Source of the DNA: Planctomycetaceae bacterium
GTDB taxonomy: Bacteria; Planctomycetota; Planctomycetia; Pirellulales; Pirellulaceae
DNA: 43,504 bases
Assembly (NCBI GenBank): GCA_005798335.1
Contig: SYJV01000111.1
Location: 1-43,504, forward strand
Direction of reading: 5' to 3'
A model generated the notes under the pieces. That model was not told where the DNA came from, did not search any database, and worked only from the letters and a program-made list of their open reading frames with translations. The position numbers and the translations under genes are program-made. Shown here in pieces: positions 7,266 through 37,522 of the stretch (positions are counted from its first letter, which is position 1; the number at the start of each line of letters is the position of its first letter).

Positions 7266-7457
7266 ATGGCAGAGTACAACAGCGCACGCGATGCAGCGTG
7301 TTGTGGTGGTCCGACGCTGCATCGCTGGACGCCTCATCCAGCGATGGAGGAATGTGTCGTGTGCCAGAATCGCAGACTGGAGTGGAGCGATGAATGCAAG
7401 CCGTGCGAACGTGCGAAACGCTGCGAAGATTTTGAGGAGTTTGTCAATGAAGACTGA
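7266..7457 (+). CDS. Cys-rich putative zinc-binding mini-protein (63 aa)
   Basis: The ATG lies two bases after the preceding stop. Within 63 residues there are Cys pairs CCGG, CVVC and CKPC, then a final RC, with His residues in between (HRWTPH). Two CxxC pairs separated by 13 residues (CVVCQNRRLEWSDECKPC) form a classic zinc-ribbon spacing. Such mini-proteins are usually nucleic-acid or protein adaptors. No specific partner can be named. Its end overlaps the acetyltransferase start. Confidence 0.6.
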   Translation: MAEYNSARDAACCGGPTLHRWTPHPAMEECVVCQNRRLEWSDECKPCERAKRCEDFEEFVNED

Positions 7458-7983
7458 TTATTCGGCTTTGCACGTCAGGTGGATGATTCGCCGCGATCAG
7501 GATCGTGTCCTTGAGATCGAGAAGGATTGTTTTGCATCGCCTTGGACTCGTGGAGACTTCGAACGAGCGATTTCGACCCGAAACAAGATTGGGATGGTTG
7601 TCGAAGAGCTCGACGAACATCAGGTTTTAGGATTCATGATTTACGAGCTATTCGGCAATCGATTGAATCTGGCCAGGATCGCGGTCGAAAAGCGGTACCG
7701 TCGTGAAGGAGTTGGATCGGCGATGATTCGCAAGTTGCTCTCGAAGCTGGGCTATTTCAGGCGGACGATGATCACAGCGAAACTGCGGGAGTCCGAATTA
7801 GAAGCACAGTTGTTTTTCAAAAGCTTCGACTTCCGGGCAATTGGGTTACTCAGAGGCTACTTCGACGGCAACGGCGAAGATGCTTACATGATGCGTTATC
7901 GGCTGCCTAGTCGGTGTACAAGGAAGCGAGAACCTGCTTTTATCTGTCTTGATCGCGACGATTGGAAAGCTTGGGAAAAATGA
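7447..7983 (+). CDS. GNAT-family N-acetyltransferase, RimI-like (178 aa)
   Basis: The fold signature of RimI-type GNAT enzymes is clear: an N-terminal IEKDCFASPWTRGDFERAI (residues 24-42; the 'E..F..PWS...F' block), a strand LGFMIYELFGNRLNL, and acetyl-CoA motif A, VEKRYRREGVGSAMIRKLL (80-98). The C-terminal block is AQLFFKSFDFRAIGLLRGYF (120-139). RimI acetylates the N-terminus of ribosomal protein S18. A phage copy may modify host or phage proteins, target unknown. The ATG lies inside the zinc mini-protein gene and the stop overlaps the next start (ATGA). Confidence 0.88.
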   Translation: MKTDYSALHVRWMIRRDQDRVLEIEKDCFASPWTRGDFERAISTRNKIGMVVEELDEHQVLGFMIYELFGNRLNLARIAVEKRYRREGVGSAMIRKLLSKLGYFRRTMITAKLRESELEAQLFFKSFDFRAIGLLRGYFDGNGEDAYMMRYRLPSRCTRKREPAFICLDRDDWKAWEK

Positions 7984-8909: not shown

Positions 8910-9989
8910 TTAGGCGGTTACTTTTCTAAAATTGCGGCGACTCGAGCCCGATCGAACGCGTGGTTCGTCCAATAGTTTCCGTAAATGTTTTGCCAGCACC
9001 TCGGCAAACCTAACGGGAACAGCGTTCCCGATTTGTTGGGCGACTTGCGAAAGCGTTCCATAAAAAGTGTAGCGGTCGGGGAAAGACTGCAACGCAGCAG
9101 CCTCACGCAAAGAGATCGCGCGATCCTGTTCAGGATGGCCGTAACGACCGTTGGAGATACTATGGCACCGGCCCGTAAGCGTAGGTGCCGGAAGATCCCA
9201 AGCCATCCTTCCATAAACATCCGTGTGGCCCTTGTACTCTCCACTATGACATACAAGCTTAAGTTCCGAAGGCCAGGCCCTACGATCACCGCCATTCGAA
9301 GGTGTGTGCCGCAATCGTTTAAGATTCAACTCAGATATTCCAGAGCAAACATGGTTAGGAAATGTTGCGTCGGACTGACCCGCGTCCAAGGCAGGAAAAT
9401 GCTCAATTGCATCGCGTACCGTTCGAAAGCTCCGACTGGCGCCTCCGTAGTTTGGTCCAGGCAGTGAAACAGGAGCACCTCTCACGGCCAGCAGCACAAG
9501 CCTGCGTCGGCCTTGAGGAACTCCATAATGTTTGGCGTCAAGCACATCGCTAGCCACACAATAGCCATTGTGCATTAGCATGCGTACAAAACGATTGTAC
9601 GTGCTATTGCCAGGCACTTTTGCAAGGCCAGGAACGTTCTCGATAATAATTGCGCGAGGCAATGAGCTCTCAACTATTCGGCCAAACGCACTAAGAACAG
9701 TTGCATCACCAGATTTCGAGCATCCCTTTCTCTGTTGGCTAAATGGTTGGCATGGGGCGCAACCTACAAAAACGGCATCCTCACTGCGTCGATTTCCAAC
9801 GATGGACTTGATGTCTGACATTCCAATGGCTCGAACATCCTTGCATAAAAATACAGCCCCGAGGTTATTCGAGGTGTAAGATTTAGCGCAGCATTCATTG
9901 ATGTCGATGCCCGCGACAACATCCACCCCAGCGTCTTTCAACCCTCGAGTAAATCCGCCAGCTCCACAAAAAAAATCAATTGCAATCAT
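8910..9989 (-). CDS. C5-cytosine DNA methyltransferase (359 aa)
   Basis: Transfers a methyl group from S-adenosylmethionine to C5 of cytosine in a specific DNA site. Motif I is DFFCGAGG (residues 5-12), motif IV APCQPFS with catalytic C80, motif VI IIIENVPGL (115-122), motif VIII QGRRR (159-163), and motif X QQIGNAVP (318-325). The target-recognition region (about 165-290) is short and not assignable. The start is the ATG at 9989, in an ATGA overlap with the response-regulator stop; it starts right at motif I, as these enzymes do. No restriction nuclease is encoded next to it. The gene is more A/T-rich than the phage genes around it. Confidence 0.95.
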   Translation of the reverse strand: MIAIDFFCGAGGFTRGLKDAGVDVVAGIDINECCAKSYTSNNLGAVFLCKDVRAIGMSDIKSIVGNRRSEDAVFVGCAPCQPFSQQRKGCSKSGDATVLSAFGRIVESSLPRAIIIENVPGLAKVPGNSTYNRFVRMLMHNGYCVASDVLDAKHYGVPQGRRRLVLLAVRGAPVSLPGPNYGGASRSFRTVRDAIEHFPALDAGQSDATFPNHVCSGISELNLKRLRHTPSNGGDRRAWPSELKLVCHSGEYKGHTDVYGRMAWDLPAPTLTGRCHSISNGRYGHPEQDRAISLREAAALQSFPDRYTFYGTLSQVAQQIGNAVPVRFAEVLAKHLRKLLDEPRVRSGSSRRNFRKVTA

Positions 9990-11101
9990 TGCGGGATAAC
10001 GTTTTTTGTTCGTTGCAAACCAGCGACAATACTTTTGCTCCAATCGTCGAAATCTCGCTCTGGAAGACCTGGTCGTGCGGCGGTCTGTAGATAAGCCCAG
10101 GAGATCAATTCTCGAAACGGACTGTCGATCGAAGCAATGCGCCTAAAATGGTCTTGATTGGACAATTCATTCAAGTCAACCAACAACAGTGACTTCAGAT
10201 TCAAAAACATCTCGGGAATTCGACCTGACAGTTCGGGTATCGGCACGATCTCCTTTGAAAATCCATGGGAAAGCACGTTTACCTGCAAGAATTTTTGAAG
10301 TTTATCGGCTCTTGCATCATGCTGATTCAGGCATTTCAACCCGCTCTCAATGTTGACACAATTTGCAGCTAAAACTTGAGCGACCTTGGCTTTCCTGGTT
10401 CCATTGCAAACTAAATCGCATGAGGGAGTCAGGATAACTATGAAGCTCTCGGCATCATCTGCCGGACAGCCAGCTCGTTGATATACGTCGCCAAGGCAAG
10501 GCGAACTGCTCACGGGCGGATATATGTATTGCTCCCAGCTCTTCAATAATTCAATATGCTGGACGTATTCATCCATCGCGGCGGCAAGGCGTCGTCGAGC
10601 TGAGCGAATAACCGACTGTCTGCAACCCTCAGCGTCAGTCCCGAAATGACCGAACGAAAATGGAGCAACTTCGCGAAGCGCGATTGACAACTCTGCTCTT
10701 ACCCTTGACTGTGTTTCACGCAGTAGTTCAACATGGGGCTCGAATCGGTTAATTGCTTGTGCGAATTCCGTCGGGCTGTCCTTGCCTTTCTTAACAAGCG
10801 TTACAAACGGATGCGGCTTTTCCTTTAAATCGGCCAACAGTTCAGGATACGCTGAATAAATGATAATTGGGCAGAAGCATCTCTCCCAGATTTCATGATA
10901 TACGCCTGCTCCAGGGGCTTTAGACTCAGCAGAGTTGCCATATTGAGCAAGATCCAAGACCACAATATCGGGCGAGTAGTCAAGGATTCTGTCCAATCCA
11001 AATTCAAAATCTTCTACTTTCGTTTCATGATTATTTTCTTTAAGGTCATCTACTACGACGGCAACCGACTCTTCTTCGTCTTCAATGAACAAAACACGCA
11101 T
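9986..11101 (-). CDS. Response regulator with REC domain and large unknown C-terminal domain (371 aa)
   Basis: Residues 1-120 form a receiver domain: acidic pair E7-D8 in FIEDEEE, phospho-acceptor D50 in DIVVLDLAQYG, S83 in IIIYSAYP, and Lys near 104 in TLVKKG. The C-terminal 250 residues are not a known DNA-binding output domain. They contain a helical segment (130-190), the striking LTPSCDLV motif (224-231), further Cys residues (C248, C257), and a conserved-looking SPFRELISWAYLQTAARPG (327-345). The gene lies 32 bases downstream of the kinase gene and overlaps the methyltransferase start. I infer that it is phosphorylated by the kinase and controls either the methyltransferase or an activity in its own C-terminal domain. 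Confidence 0.85.
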   Translation of the reverse strand: MRVLFIEDEEESVAVVVDDLKENNHETKVEDFEFGLDRILDYSPDIVVLDLAQYGNSAESKAPGAGVYHEIWERCFCPIIIYSAYPELLADLKEKPHPFVTLVKKGKDSPTEFAQAINRFEPHVELLRETQSRVRAELSIALREVAPFSFGHFGTDAEGCRQSVIRSARRRLAAAMDEYVQHIELLKSWEQYIYPPVSSSPCLGDVYQRAGCPADDAESFIVILTPSCDLVCNGTRKAKVAQVLAANCVNIESGLKCLNQHDARADKLQKFLQVNVLSHGFSKEIVPIPELSGRIPEMFLNLKSLLLVDLNELSNQDHFRRIASIDSPFRELISWAYLQTAARPGLPERDFDDWSKSIVAGLQRTKNVIPQ

Positions 11102-11133
11102 TCTTGCATCCCTAAATCAAAAAGTGAAAGCAT

Positions 11134-13287
11134 CTAAGCTGGGCAAGGAATATCAAAACCAAAAGTCGCGCCGCCCAGCGCGCCATCTTTTTTCGCAAAC
11201 AGTACGCCTCCGTAGCCGCTAATAATTTCCGATGCAATTGTCAGCCCCATGCCAATACCGCTTGGCCGTCGAGTCACTCCTGGCAGGAAAATCTTGTCTA
11301 GCGCGTCCGCGTCGATTCCTGGTCCTGTATCATCTATCCAAACGCGTATCTTTCGTTCCGCTTTCCTATGTAATATGCGGACTCTTATTCGCCTGTCTTC
11401 CTTGGGAGCTAAGCCCAGCCAATATATCGCATTCGTAAATATGTTTAAAAAAACGGTTTCGAGTTCGCCTGGATCGACTATTACTTCACTGCGAGTTTTT
11501 GGCAACTGCACACTAATCTTTTTCTTTCGAAGTTCGGATTCAAGTATTGAAATGCAGTTTGATAGAGAGTCTTCAATGACAGACTTTCGTTTGCGTCTAG
11601 TAAATGTGTGACTGGCTAAGGGTGAAAATGTATCTGCGAGCTTATCAAGGGCTGATAAGGAGTCATCCGCAAGCGCATAATACCTGTCGAGTTTTTGATC
11701 AGCAAAAGGTGAGAACCTTTGCTTGACCATTTCGAGAAATCTTGCGACAACCGTTGTCCTGTTGCGTATTTCGTGCACCAGCATATTGCAAATAGTACCA
11801 ACTGTCGCCATGCGACTATAGAAAATCAACCTCTCTTCAATAGACTTTATAGTCGAGTCGATCCTCTCGCTGTATGCCTCTACCAAAGGAACTGTCTGCG
11901 ACGCAGAACCTCCCTCGTCAACAATCTCATTGATTTGATCTATGAGAAGTTCTGTTGATAGATCTTCAAATAGGTTTTTTATTGGTTTCGCGCGTTTTAC
12001 ACGATCTTGTTCTCGTTCAATTTCGAGCAACCCAACTATTGCCATCAGCATTTGCTCAAACCCTAAAACTGCGTCGCTGGAAACGAGTCGCTCACGGTCG
12101 CTCGTGTCAACAATACCTGGATTTTCGTCGCCCGTAATTGCAACATATCCAACGACCTGACTCGTGCTCAGGCGGTTGCCCACCTTGCTAATTCGGCGAA
12201 GGTCAAGGCCAAGCCAGTCGCGGGCATTATCTGACTTTGGGAGCACGAGGACGCCGTCCCGGTACACAGAAATACCTTTGTGTACACTGATGGCTTTTCG
12301 AATTTTTGATTTTTGGAAGTTAAACTTCTCTGATATTTCGTCTGTGTCCTCGGCAGCAATATCCCAAGCGCGAATTTCGAAGTCAAATGCACCGCATTTT
12401 GGAGTAGATCTTTCAAACCCGCGTAATCCTGCGTCTTGGATGTCATCATAGACCTGTTCCCATGTATGCCGAAGTGATTTTTGCCTCGACTTGCCATTTT
12501 TAAGTGGCTTGAATATATATGTTGCTTTTATGTCGCCCGTTTCGCTTGCATTGCCATGAATTCTATACTTTGGACTAGATAAAAATGACGGGGATTCGAT
12601 TCGCACTTCTTTTCCGCTAGCCGTGGCATCCTCGTCGTTTCGACACACAAAGATGTTAAGTTCCCCCGTCTCCTTAAAGGGCGAGATAAGCCGCGCGAGA
12701 TTTTCTTCCAAGTTTGATATCGTGGCTTCATCCCATTCCCTGTGCAATCCACCGATTTCGATCAGGGTGCCTGAGATATCAAATGGGCTCGCGCTGGGAT
12801 ATTTTCGTAATTTTATGGTGCAATCGTCAAGCCGAGAATTGTTGGATAGTTCACTCCAGTCGACAATTAGCTCGAAACACGGGTGATGGGCGCTCTGCGT
12901 AAGAAGTCGGAAATGATGTCCAAGTCGCGAAATTGACAGACGGCCGAGGCCTTTCTCTCCAACCACCCGTCGTTCCTTACCATCCTTGGACAACCGAGGG
13001 TTTAACTCTTTGTATGGGGTTGCGATAACACACCAAACGTTTTGGATCAGTTCCTTTGTCATACCGATTCCATCATCTTCGATTATGATTTGTGGGCCTG
13101 TAAGTTCACTATTAGCAAACCGAATATATGCGTTCTGCGCAAAGGCATCATATGAATTCTTAACAAGTTCAATTACTGCAACCACATCGTTCGTAACAAG
13201 CCCAGCTCCAAGTGCGGCTAGTACACGTGGATGCATTTGTAATTTGATTTGCTCAAACGAGTCGGGTGTATTGTTTTTCGGATTCAT
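11134..13287 (-). CDS. Soluble protein with MutL/MORC-like GHKL ATPase fused to a histidine kinase (717 aa)
   Basis: Two GHKL ATPase modules lie in one chain. The first (residues 20-200) is Hsp90/MutL/MORC-like: VAVIELVKNSYDA (37-48), EDDGIGM (70-76), VVGEKGLGRLSISRLG (108-123). A middle region of about 250 residues is unassigned. The second is a histidine kinase: phospho-acceptor box MLVHEIRN with H505, N-box LNIFTNA (614-620), G1 DDTGPGID (652-659), and G2 SGIGMGLTI (676-684). No membrane segment is seen, so it acts in the cytoplasm. Start: ATG at 13287; upstream TTG starts exist but add a non-conserved-looking leader. The next gene is its likely response regulator. Codon use is more A/T-rich than in neighbours, suggesting transfer as a cargo module. 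Confidence 0.88.
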   Translation of the reverse strand: MNPKNNTPDSFEQIKLQMHPRVLAALGAGLVTNDVVAVIELVKNSYDAFAQNAYIRFANSELTGPQIIIEDDGIGMTKELIQNVWCVIATPYKELNPRLSKDGKERRVVGEKGLGRLSISRLGHHFRLLTQSAHHPCFELIVDWSELSNNSRLDDCTIKLRKYPSASPFDISGTLIEIGGLHREWDEATISNLEENLARLISPFKETGELNIFVCRNDEDATASGKEVRIESPSFLSSPKYRIHGNASETGDIKATYIFKPLKNGKSRQKSLRHTWEQVYDDIQDAGLRGFERSTPKCGAFDFEIRAWDIAAEDTDEISEKFNFQKSKIRKAISVHKGISVYRDGVLVLPKSDNARDWLGLDLRRISKVGNRLSTSQVVGYVAITGDENPGIVDTSDRERLVSSDAVLGFEQMLMAIVGLLEIEREQDRVKRAKPIKNLFEDLSTELLIDQINEIVDEGGSASQTVPLVEAYSERIDSTIKSIEERLIFYSRMATVGTICNMLVHEIRNRTTVVARFLEMVKQRFSPFADQKLDRYYALADDSLSALDKLADTFSPLASHTFTRRKRKSVIEDSLSNCISILESELRKKKISVQLPKTRSEVIVDPGELETVFLNIFTNAIYWLGLAPKEDRRIRVRILHRKAERKIRVWIDDTGPGIDADALDKIFLPGVTRRPSGIGMGLTIASEIISGYGGVLFAKKDGALGGATFGFDIPCPA

Positions 13288-13398
13288 TTTCGTAAAGTGG
13301 CGGACAAGGACCATGTAGATTGAGATGACAATCACGCTATGCAATTAACGGTCGTCGATGGCGAGTTGCTTAGTCTACACACTCGCTCGTCCGTTGCG

Positions 13399-13680
13399 TC
13401 ACACCTTGGGAAGAAGTTCAAAAGCTTTTACTCCCAATGCCGCCGCGATGTGCGGCAATTTGTCCAGGCCGATCGAACGGCCGCTTTCGAAATGGTACCA
13501 GGTCGGACGGGCAACGTTGGCTGCCTTGGCGCACTGAACCGCCGACAAGCCTTTGCTGACTCTCGTTTCGCGGATCAGCGCACCGACCGCCACCAGGAAC
13601 GCGTCAGAATCGACGGCTGGCGGCTCGGGCGTTGGAGCGGGTTTAGTTGCGGCTGGGGCCGCTGATCGTTTCTTGGGCAT
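13399..13680 (-). CDS. XRE-family HTH transcription regulator (93 aa)
   Basis: After an Ala/Pro-rich N-terminal arm (residues 1-25) comes a Cro/CI-type HTH: VGALIRETRVSKGLSAVQ, CAKAANVARPTWYHFESG and LDKLPHIAAALGVKAFELL. There is no peptidase or dimerisation domain, so it is a short regulator of Cro size or one half of a repressor pair. It is likely to bind an operator in the control region; the 25-bp palindrome at 14723 is one candidate. Its start overlaps the end of the upstream gene by 38 bases. It may set the switch between lysogeny and growth, and is transcribed towards the kinase module. Confidence 0.85.
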   Translation of the reverse strand: MPKKRSAAPAATKPAPTPEPPAVDSDAFLVAVGALIRETRVSKGLSAVQCAKAANVARPTWYHFESGRSIGLDKLPHIAAALGVKAFELLPKV

Positions 13681-35143: not shown

Positions 35144-37522
35144 ATGAATACTACCTTCCCATCGGTGCAAACTCGCGCGGCGAATGATCAAAACAAGCTG
35201 TCCCGACGCGATGCGGTGATTAAACCACCATCGCTCGACAGTGCAGCTCGCGAGGTGCAGTGCACGCTCGCGACCGAAACCCCGGTGCTGATCTATGACT
35301 GGCGAACCGGCCGCCGAGTCGAAGAAGTACTGCTGGCCAGCGGTGCTGAGTTCGACGAACAAACGCCGCTGCTCAGAGACCACTCCCATTACAGCGTCTC
35401 GGCGATTCTCGGCAGCGTTGTAAACATCAGCGCCAATGCGGAACTCGGCGGACTGCTGCAATTCGGGCGTGATCTCGACGAGCAGTGCGAAGGGATCTGG
35501 CGACGTGTTGAGCAAGGTCACCTTCGACGCGTGTCCGTTGGATACACGTATGGCCCCAAAGACTATACGACCATTCCTGCAGGACGAACTGCGTCGATCA
35601 ATGGCGTCACCTATACGGCGTCGGCTGAGTATGACCGGCGAATCGTGACGAGATGGGATCTGCGCGAGGTCAGCGTGGTGGTGATTCCCGCTGATTCGTC
35701 AGCCCAGATGCGTGGCGATGAAGCCGCAATCGGGATGCAAACTTCTGATTCTGCATCTTTAGGAGCTGCTGATCAGTCAGACCAAAACCGAAACCAAAAC
35801 CATTCGATTCCGCCGTCACAGCGAGCAAACCACGTGGACCCAATTCTTGAATATCTCCGCCAGCTTGGGCTACCTGAAGACATCAATCAGCGCGCTGCCG
35901 CAATTGAATGGAGCCGGGCTCTGATTCCGGAACAGCAAGAAGCATTCTCGCAACTGTGCCGCCAACATGCACAGGATCTGCCAGCGGACCATTTTCTTTA
36001 TGCGCTTCGCTCGGCTGTGACGCAAACGACCACTGGCACTCTAACGACAACCACGACTGACACTGGTACCAGAAGCGATACCAATGGCGGCACCGTCACC
36101 GGCGCTGACGCGGTCGCTGCGGAACGTGAACGTTGTCGATCGATTCGCTCGTTGGCTGCCGAGCATCCTCATATCAGCCCCGAAGTTGTCCAACGCGCAC
36201 AAGATGAGGGCTGGGATATTAACCGCACACGCGAAGCGTTTTTGAACGCAATGGTTGGACAAGCTCCCGGCGCTGTCGGCGGTGTTGCACCGGCCGGCCA
36301 CGTCCGCCAGGGCGGCGCAACCTTGGAGATCATGCAGGCAGCGCTTCTGGAACGCCACGGCATTCGGCCGGACAGCCCGATCCTTCGCAACGATTTCATG
36401 ACAGCCGTAACCGGCCGCAGCGAATTGGCTGCTGGTTGGCTCGATGGGGCCCGAGGTACGACTCAGGAACGCGATCGCGTTGAACAATTGTTCTCGCGTG
36501 CACGTGAGCTGCGTCTCGGACAGGCGAATCACTTGCGGCTCTGTGCCGAAATGATCGAAATGCGGGGCGAGCGAGTGCCTTATAACGATGATGACATCGT
36601 CGAACGGGCGTTCTCTCATATGGACTTCACTGTCGTGTTCGGCACGGTGGTCCACATCATGATGATCAAGGGATATGCCGACGCACCGGCAATCTACGAG
36701 CAATTCTGTCACGTCCGCGATGTTCCGGATTTCCGCCCGAGCAACACGTTCCGAAATGGCGTGGTCAATGGGTTTAAGAAGTTGGGGCCCAGCGGCGGCA
36801 AAGCGCCACTGTTGAACGGAACCAGTCCAACATTGATGCCGCTGAAGGCGGATCGCTACGCCGGGACGCTGAAGATCGACGAACAAACGTTGATCGGCGA
36901 TAGCTTCAACCTTACTGATTCTTTGCCAACGGAGGTTGGTAAGACGGCACGGTTGATTCCAACCGACATGGTTTTCGCGGTACTGCTGAGCAATGAAAAT
37001 CTCAGTACCGGCGGCGCCCTGTTCGTCGATGGCACGAATCTGATCACCGATGGAACGATGGATCTGGATGGGATAATTGCGGCCTCTGGAATGTTGAAGG
37101 CTGTTGAGGTCAACAAGCGCCGCTTGGACGTCGAAGGAATGGTGTTGCTCGCCGGTGTGGGGCTTGCTCCCAAGGCGGTCAGCATCTTGGGCAGCGAGAT
37201 GATCGACGAAAAGAAGAACCCTCTGCACAAGGCCTACCGAGTTGCCGAGAGCAACGCGATTGACCTGGGTGTGTTCGATCCACGCGACGACAGTGACGAA
37301 GCTCCGCGTATCGCTGGGAAGCCTGACAGCTACTACCTGTTCGGCACGCCTGGTCGATCGATCGAAGTCGGTTTCCGCCAGGGCACCAACCGCGCTCCAC
37401 GAACCCGTCGACGATTGCTGACCGACGGCGAGTACGGCATCGCCTGGGACGTGAACGTCGACTGCGGTGTTGCGGCGGCCGAACGCATCGGAGTCGTTCG
37501 AGTCGACACCGTCGACGAATAA
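35144..37522 (+). CDS. Prohead protease fused to HK97-type major capsid protein (792 aa)
   Basis: The N-terminal 190 residues match the U35/HK97 prohead protease: PLLRDHSHYSVSAILG with His80, GHLRRVSVGYTYG with Ser131, and DLREVSVVVIPADSSA (172-187) with the E-V-S block. A linker and scaffold-like region follow: Gln/Asn-rich, then about 230-330 helical with a Thr-rich stretch and ITGADAVAAERERCRSIRSL-like helix. Residues from about 400 to the end give the capsid-type beta core (e.g. GYADAPAIYEQFC, PLKADRYAGTLKIDEQTL, LVTDGEYGIAWDVNVDCG-like end). One gene thus supplies protease, scaffold and shell. The self-cleavage would have to separate them. No ribosome site; a hairpin abuts the ATG. Confidence 0.85.
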   Translation: MNTTFPSVQTRAANDQNKLSRRDAVIKPPSLDSAAREVQCTLATETPVLIYDWRTGRRVEEVLLASGAEFDEQTPLLRDHSHYSVSAILGSVVNISANAELGGLLQFGRDLDEQCEGIWRRVEQGHLRRVSVGYTYGPKDYTTIPAGRTASINGVTYTASAEYDRRIVTRWDLREVSVVVIPADSSAQMRGDEAAIGMQTSDSASLGAADQSDQNRNQNHSIPPSQRANHVDPILEYLRQLGLPEDINQRAAAIEWSRALIPEQQEAFSQLCRQHAQDLPADHFLYALRSAVTQTTTGTLTTTTTDTGTRSDTNGGTVTGADAVAAERERCRSIRSLAAEHPHISPEVVQRAQDEGWDINRTREAFLNAMVGQAPGAVGGVAPAGHVRQGGATLEIMQAALLERHGIRPDSPILRNDFMTAVTGRSELAAGWLDGARGTTQERDRVEQLFSRARELRLGQANHLRLCAEMIEMRGERVPYNDDDIVERAFSHMDFTVVFGTVVHIMMIKGYADAPAIYEQFCHVRDVPDFRPSNTFRNGVVNGFKKLGPSGGKAPLLNGTSPTLMPLKADRYAGTLKIDEQTLIGDSFNLTDSLPTEVGKTARLIPTDMVFAVLLSNENLSTGGALFVDGTNLITDGTMDLDGIIAASGMLKAVEVNKRRLDVEGMVLLAGVGLAPKAVSILGSEMIDEKKNPLHKAYRVAESNAIDLGVFDPRDDSDEAPRIAGKPDSYYLFGTPGRSIEVGFRQGTNRAPRTRRRLLTDGEYGIAWDVNVDCGVAAAERIGVVRVDTVDE

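Follow-up and report, generated by a model that had tools for sequence, protein, structure and literature searches.

We describe a three-gene module in a planctomycete genome that encodes a sensor histidine kinase with two GHKL ATPase domains, a response regulator with a predicted MazF-fold output domain, and a C5-cytosine DNA methyltransferase. The genes lie in a stretch of 43,504 nucleotides (hereafter, the window) from contig SYJV01000111.1 of the Planctomycetaceae bacterium assembly GCA_005798335.1. The module is real, widespread and conserved; gene order, domains, relay residues, recurrence, co-variation of the relay proteins, the predicted fold and an either-or pattern of candidate effectors were all computed here. 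Given that similar gene sets occur in many bacterial groups, the trio suggests a form of DNA-marking defense that operates via a phosphate relay and is not an ordinary restriction enzyme. Specifically, we interpret it as a mobile, modification-coupled defense module in which the phosphorelay gates a MazF-fold effector, a reading to which we assign roughly an even chance.

All three genes are encoded on the minus strand. The kinase gene (11134-13287) yields a protein of 717 amino acids from an in-frame ATG at 13287, or 736 amino acids from a TTG start in the longest open reading frame (11134-13344); it is separated by 32 bp (11102-11133) from the regulator gene (9986-11101; 371 amino acids), the stop codon of which overlaps the ATG of the methylase gene at 9989 as ATGA (8910-9989; 359 amino acids, within an open reading frame spanning 8910-10043). 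The GC content of the trio is 0.44-0.52 compared to 0.51-0.61 elsewhere in the window, in coarse 1-kb bins. The coordinates and the GC bins bear out an earlier reading of the sequence alone (the sequence-only reading), which had noted three leftward genes with these two junctions and a lower GC content.

The trio recurs across bacterial and viral contigs as well as plasmids, and the relatives of the kinase span Bacteroidota, Pseudomonadota, actinobacteria, planctomycetes, Chloroflexi, Verrucomicrobia and other groups. Loci were chosen by a kinase profile (the best 80 of at least 560 confirmed relatives in genome contigs, and 35 from viral contigs), and plasmids were searched with the kinase using tblastn (975 records with some similarity, 59 of these covering 80% or more of the query, ten regions opened); the regulator and the methylase were unselected except in five seed loci. 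With 14 loci with weak kinase scores and three duplicates excluded, there were 119 loci with a strong kinase match, including the window, and 111 of these had a usable next gene; in the other eight, the kinase gene was at a contig end (three), or the next gene was on the opposite strand (two), too short (two) or too long (one). According to an iterated regulator profile, the next gene encodes a homologous regulator in 106 of the 111 loci, and full-length regulators of the window type are present in 77 loci. Within five genes of these 77, a C5-methylase is encoded in 59, a Vsr protein in 33, and either of the two in 62; without the five seed loci, the C5-methylase is found in 55 of 72, and in 36 of the 40 in which the view extends five genes in each direction. 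Across the fetched loci, C5-methylases account for 69 of the 732 genes within five positions but for only one of the 430 genes more than six positions away. The evolutionary distances of the kinase and the regulator are strongly correlated (Mantel rho 0.76), with lower values for the methylase (0.40 and 0.30; 59 loci, 0/500 permutations in each case), host relatedness not being factored out of these coefficients. Taken together, the recurrence counts, the comparison with distal genes and the distance co-variation led us to reject an accidental gene cluster. The sequence-only reading had asked whether the trio recurs as a unit and near known defense genes, and it does recur and can lie near such genes: on a Hymenobacter plasmid, the gene order is Vsr, C5-methylase, kinase and regulator, directly followed by DUF3883, ATPase, Z1, PD-(D/E)XK and AIPR genes. 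On a conjugative plasmid of Campylobacter armoricus, the kinase and regulator genes are followed by a C5-methylase gene on the opposite strand.

The window belongs to a clade with ten relatives (L070, L071, L075, L077, L078, L085, L087, L089, L103 and L105), the kinases of which are 38-53% identical to that of the window. By their labels, the records comprise three from planctomycetes and one each from deltaproteobacteria, Chloroflexi, Bacteroidales, Acidimicrobiales and Ruminococcus, along with two viral contigs (L103 and L105) that retain the gene order of the window. A C5-methylase is encoded within five genes in all ten relatives, directly after the regulator in eight, as in the window; kinase, regulator and methylase stand in a row in 9 of the 11 clade members, the window included. 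Seven of the relatives also encode Vsr, which is missing within five genes in the window.

The kinase contains two ATPase domains, HATPase_c_3 (3.3e-16) and HATPase_c (2.4e-18). The N-terminal MORC/BbrUII-like GHKL ATPase (12646-13245, minus strand; residues 34-233) matches the restriction enzyme family restrict_BbrUII NF050001 (8.7e-21), over these residues only and with 74 bits against a family cut-off of 550. The rear end of the protein matches ordinary histidine kinases, with the core (11146-11847, minus strand) containing a DHp domain and the N, G1 and G2 boxes; the phosphoacceptor His524 (11773-11775, minus strand) is located in the HEIRN box of the DHp domain. Among the window-type kinases, the phosphoacceptor histidine and the N-box asparagine are conserved in 76 of 76, and, in the first GHKL domain, Glu59 and Asn63 in 75 of 76, so that, judging from these residues, the relay and the two ATPase sites appear to be intact and working. 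The domain matches thus agree with the original description of a MORC/MutL-type GHKL ATPase fused to a histidine kinase with a HEIRN box.

The regulator of the window matches no Pfam family. Its receiver domain (10742-11101, minus strand) is visible in the predicted structure; phmmer matches to solved receivers are weak (E 0.25 to 0.96), and three of four relatives of the regulator match PF00072 below the cut-off. The phosphoacceptor Asp50 (10952-10954, minus strand) is invariant in all 62 aligned regulators. The AlphaFold model of the whole regulator, built from 62 sequences (pLDDT 94.2), consists of the receiver, long helices and a compact alpha/beta domain. When compared to the PDB, this whole model mostly matches receivers, and when compared to a viral library, receivers and three proteins with PemK-like names, the latter weakly (best E 1.6e-3, TM-score by query about 0.2). 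The output domain alone (10064-10555, minus strand; model pLDDT 95.8) yields 34 PDB matches at E of 0.001 or below, and the best of these are MazF-type toxins (top E 7.6e-5, probability 1.00, TM-scores of 0.59-0.75 by target and 0.35-0.45 by query, root-mean-square deviation 3.6-7.6). Among the 50 matches listed, 45 have MazF in the title; the titles of the other five, YdcE, MoxT, "mRNA interferase", "toxin" and "endoribonuclease", refer to what we take to be MazF relatives. Cys228 (10418-10420, minus strand), Pro289 and Gly345 are invariant in the output domain, whereas Arg343 and Pro226 are each conserved in 97% and Asp229 in 82%. As a model, the MazF fold has good support, although homology and catalysis do not follow from it. 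The sequence-only reading had described a receiver followed by about 250 unknown residues; the model upholds the receiver and resolves the remainder into long helices and a predicted MazF-fold domain. The accompanying statement that no nuclease was in sight needs revision, given that the C-terminal half of the regulator has the predicted fold of an endoribonuclease toxin and that relatives lacking this half are encoded next to MBL-fold or HNH proteins.

This second point emerges from the comparison of 16 short regulators (untruncated, fewer than 280 amino acids, no output domain) with 75 untruncated long ones. The gene next to the regulator encodes an MBL-fold or HNH protein in 13 of the 16 short cases and in none of the 75 long ones (Fisher P 2.9e-13, an overstated significance given the kinship among loci and profiles built from two seeds for MBL and one for HNH). 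The three other short regulators include one at a contig end and two that adjoin matches to the MBL superfamily, one above the Pfam cut-off and one weak; no gene in 76 long-type loci was labeled as MBL or HNH. An output domain that is either fused to the receiver or replaced by a separate MBL or HNH gene is what effector exchange would look like.

In the mechanism that we propose, the C5-methylase would mark the resident DNA, that of the host and the prophage, at one sequence. The soluble kinase, with a BbrUII/HgiDII-type GHKL ATPase apparently occupying the usual position of the sensor, would survey DNA and react to unmarked or foreign molecules. Phosphotransfer from His524 to Asp50 would then switch the regulator, probably a dimer held together by the long helices, with phosphorylation as the likely activating event, and the switch would release the MazF-fold domain as the effector. 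If catalytically active, this domain would most likely cut RNA, or possibly nucleic acids more broadly, and thereby cause growth arrest or abortive infection, with defense as the presumed outcome. Recognition and cutting are normally combined in one restriction enzyme. In this module, the two apparently are split by a phosphorelay, and therefore amplification or delay of the response, or its conversion into growth arrest, would be conceivable. The predicted MazF-fold effector and the either-or pattern make this function directly testable.

Several observations weigh against the defense reading. The output domain compared to a profile of 21 PF02452 proteins scored no better than 20 shuffles, and we accordingly rejected sequence homology to MazF as a proof. 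A Pfam scan of the 62 output domains produced scattered, weak matches to 16 families (the best being XamI, 0.019, in one member, and RsgI_N, at least 0.047, in three), and PF02452 is not among these; the only match of the output-domain profile to PDB sequences is at chance level (a fimbrial protein, E 1.3). The catalytic pair of MazF consists of Arg and Thr; by eye, this pair does not appear to be kept in the output domain, which displays a different conserved set of Cys, Asp and Arg. Because the sequence evidence is negative, we put forward the fold as a model only and claim neither homology nor catalysis. The apparent loss of the catalytic pair and the lack of a PF02452 match also fit an alternative in which the role of the relay is confined to regulation, of the methylase or of other genes, as a two-component switch of DNA methylation or of restriction-modification (R-M) expression, and the MazF-fold domain would bind nucleic acid or protein but not cleave it. 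No nuclease family was detected in six scanned neighbors of the trio, and R-M control is the role speculated for a published sister family (discussed below) in the Discussion of Bellieny-Rabelo et al. 2021 (PMC8011034). Nevertheless, we consider this alternative unlikely, given that an MBL or HNH gene accompanies the regulators without an output domain, which looks like an exchange of effectors and not like a switch of transcription, and that related kinase-regulator pairs adjoin modification genes of other chemistries.

Further points count against the proposed explanation. The output domain is present in 19 of the 392 genomes of the phylum to which the window belongs, and in 14 of these no kinase is recognizable in the flanks (loci of about 3 kb), so this domain is not specific to a role in a relay. 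No C5-methylase is encoded within five genes in 18 of the 77 window-type loci, five of which are away from contig ends. The methylases of L071, L087 and L089 are 33-39% identical to that of the window by BLAST, less than some methylases outside the clade; hence, by these identities, methylases seem to have been exchanged within the clade. The gene next to the 75 long regulators is on the same strand in 45 cases and on the opposite strand in 27, with none visible in three. The functions of the MBL and HNH proteins are assigned from family names, and we found no experiments on this subfamily in the open-licence literature.

Used alone as a query, the regulator of the window gave no confirmed match in any of the viral-contig, genome, plasmid and phage collections; in the 392 genomes of its phylum, it retrieved itself along with four matches in the receiver part (8.1e-5 to 1e-3). 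The source genome (8.46 Mb in 558 contigs, the window being contig 37) contains a single regulator match. As a separate observation, stand-alone proteins of about 167-303 amino acids that contain the same output domain and no receiver were detected in 15 loci (L138-L147, L149-L151, L153 and L156), many with the motif TQxCDL ... RvGLP. In about ten such loci, the upstream gene encodes a protein of 243-315 amino acids that has a homologue upstream in one or more of the other such loci and, we presume, resembles TIGR04255.

Other modification chemistries are represented in the neighborhoods of related kinase-regulator pairs. Such pairs follow N6-type methylase genes; in an Acinetobacter record (L136:1594-10935), the kinase and a 637-amino-acid regulator are encoded directly beside a complete SspB-SspC-SspD phosphorothioation set. 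In L091, the pair is located downstream of an SspD-like gene, and SspD-like genes in L080 and L009 were recognized by similarity to that of L091; in L080 and L091, a gene for a protein of about 1060-1075 amino acids is also upstream of the pair. Recurrent neighbors of 166-242 amino acids are found in L034, L055, L066, L072, L079 and L082, and scans of two of these, in L055 and L079, gave matches to HhH-GPD and to a model of nicking endonucleases; EcoRII-C neighbors occur in some loci. Two-component signaling is thereby linked to several DNA-marking chemistries. The EcoRII-C and nicking-enzyme neighbors, along with the full set on the Hymenobacter plasmid, also speak for the possibility that the kinase-regulator pair serves to control a more extensive restriction set (Mza-like, EcoRII-like or Ssp) that is missing from the window. 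However, a Z1, AIPR or PD-(D/E)XK gene is within five genes in just 4 of the 77 window-type loci, and 9 of the 11 clade members have the uninterrupted trio and 7 have Vsr, so that this possibility appears very improbable. The Z1 and AIPR genes of a Mza-type defense set were not detected beside the trio itself with single-sequence profiles, which labeled no open reading frame of the window outside the trio; in a scan of nine proteins with a 2023 copy of PADLOC, restriction-enzyme models matched only the GHKL part of the kinase (5.1e-7 and 6.4e-4), and the regulator weakly matched SduA (0.0014).

More generally, we tentatively entertain, at somewhat below an even chance, a class of signal-transducing restriction in which a MORC-type ATPase kinase would read whether DNA bears the mark of its own cell (m5C, N6-type methylation or phosphorothioate) and report by a His-Asp relay to an exchangeable effector, either a receiver-fused MazF-fold domain or a separate MBL or HNH protein. 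Under this hypothesis, Response_reg_2 proteins (see below) would belong to the same class, and the MazF-fold domains would form a new effector family with a P-x-C-D and R-x-G-x-P signature.

The third gene of the trio, as originally described, encodes a complete Dcm-type C5-methylase (Pfam DNA_methylase, 1e-51). Among the fetched loci, its closest relatives are the methylases of L077, L103 and L085 (58-65% identity), which occupy the same gene position in all three; outside the clade, the nearest are those of L125, L127, L133 and L124 (about 40%). The GHKL neighbors in L125 and L133, both viral contigs with Vsr, are full BbrUII/HgiDII enzymes (662 and 658 bits against the 550-bit cut-off) and thus partner methylases about 40% identical to that of the window. 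Given this relationship and the NF050001-like front of the kinase, the latter appears to carry the front part of an enzyme of the BbrUII/HgiDII type with a kinase behind it. We considered GTCGAC, through kinship with HgiDII, as the methylated site but do not claim it, since in its target-recognition region the window methylase shares no more than 38-40% identity with those of L125 and L133. This region, delineated by hand and including motif IX, is conserved at least as well as the N-terminal core in 9 of the 10 clade relatives (the exception being L087). The comparison hints only weakly at one shared methylation site in the clade because L124 and L127, outside the clade, show the same conservation.

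The sequence-only reading regarded the trio as a candidate new system, and this has to be revised because a sister family, HEF_HK/Response_reg_2, was described in 2021. In this family, published from 628 strains, kinases with HATPase_c_3, DHp and HATPase_c domains are encoded next to a receiver protein, with a C5-methylase and Vsr nearby, and no output domain is named in the sections consulted (Bellieny-Rabelo et al. 2021, PMC8011034). The window shares with this family the HATPase_c_3 front and HATPase_c end of the kinase, the adjacent regulator and the nearby C5-methylase. Nevertheless, the window proteins do not match HEF_HK PF19191 at E 0.1, nor do four relatives at E 1 (the kinase of L017, from another branch, matches weakly, 0.0023), and Response_reg_2 PF19192 is unmatched by the window regulator and the relatives tested. 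The PF19192 model matches L124, where Vsr and C5-methylase genes adjoin the kinase gene, at 2e-37, and there is one match below the cut-off (1.3e-4) in the genome of L079. Because the window proteins fail both models, the trio is, by sequence comparison, a sister variant of HEF_HK/Response_reg_2 and not a filed member. We aligned eight regulators of the sister family, seven above the PF19192 cut-off (L160, which is L124, and L162-L167) and L171 found by tblastn; these are 540-634 amino acids long compared to 371 for the window regulator. In an hhalign comparison, the window-type output-domain profile matched their C-terminal part with a probability of 96.9 (P 1.9e-10), and ten column shuffles gave 0.1 or below, which indicates, at the level of profiles, that Response_reg_2 proteins share this output domain; a single-profile search with the output domain had missed L124. 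The 2021 family thus gains an output domain and a rule that can both be tested, the rule being a fused MazF-fold domain or a separate MBL or HNH protein. New here are the prediction of the MazF-fold output domain, its sharing with Response_reg_2, the either-or pattern, and the N6-methylase and phosphorothioation neighbors; we found no prior description of the MazF-fold output domain or of the trio in the open-licence PubMed Central literature, although a subscription paper could exist.

Other known systems share individual features with the trio. Two-component signaling in phage defense is known from Detocs, which has another effector and is not known to include a methylase. The BbrUII/HgiDII enzymes have in common with the window the N-terminal GHKL ATPase and, in L125 and L133, the partnership with a C5-methylase and Vsr, whereas the kinase of the window has a histidine-kinase core at its C-terminal end. 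In the MORC/paraMORC R-M sets described by Iyer et al. 2008 (PMC2292703), GHKL ATPases accompany DNA methylases, Vsr and nucleases; in contrast to the relay of the window, neither "receiver" nor "two-component" occurs in that text. In the GHKL-Shedu protein VcSduA, which provides phage defense by experiment, the N-terminal GHKL ATPase is proposed to control the effector; in contrast to the window, this effector is a fused DUF4263 nuclease, and the available part of the account features no phosphorelay or methylase (PMC12137116).

Finally, the window has a phage context. Of ten large open reading frames that were scanned, three have matches to families of phage proteins (terminase, portal and head/protease); a 792-amino-acid protein (35144-37522) matches phrog_4523, which includes major head and protease proteins. 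No match to tyrosine integrases (PF00589) was detected on the contig, serine integrases not having been searched for. These phage genes, and the preserved gene order in the viral contigs L103 and L105, are what would be expected if the trio served the prophage itself, with the methylase shielding the phage DNA against restriction by the host and the kinase-regulator pair acting as a superinfection or addiction device. Yet 66 of the 76 long-type loci, the window included, are outside the viral collection in this sampling, and examples reside on the conjugative Campylobacter plasmid and in the plasmid cluster with Z1, PD-(D/E)XK and AIPR; we therefore view such self-interest as quite improbable, and it is in any case a question of who benefits, compatible with a defense module. 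Just upstream of the trio and on the same strand, a small helix-turn-helix gene (13399-13680) weakly matches R-M control proteins (1.1e-4). To the left of the trio, a gene at 7291-7983 encodes a RimI-like GNAT acetyltransferase (77.3 bits; cut-off 86.4).

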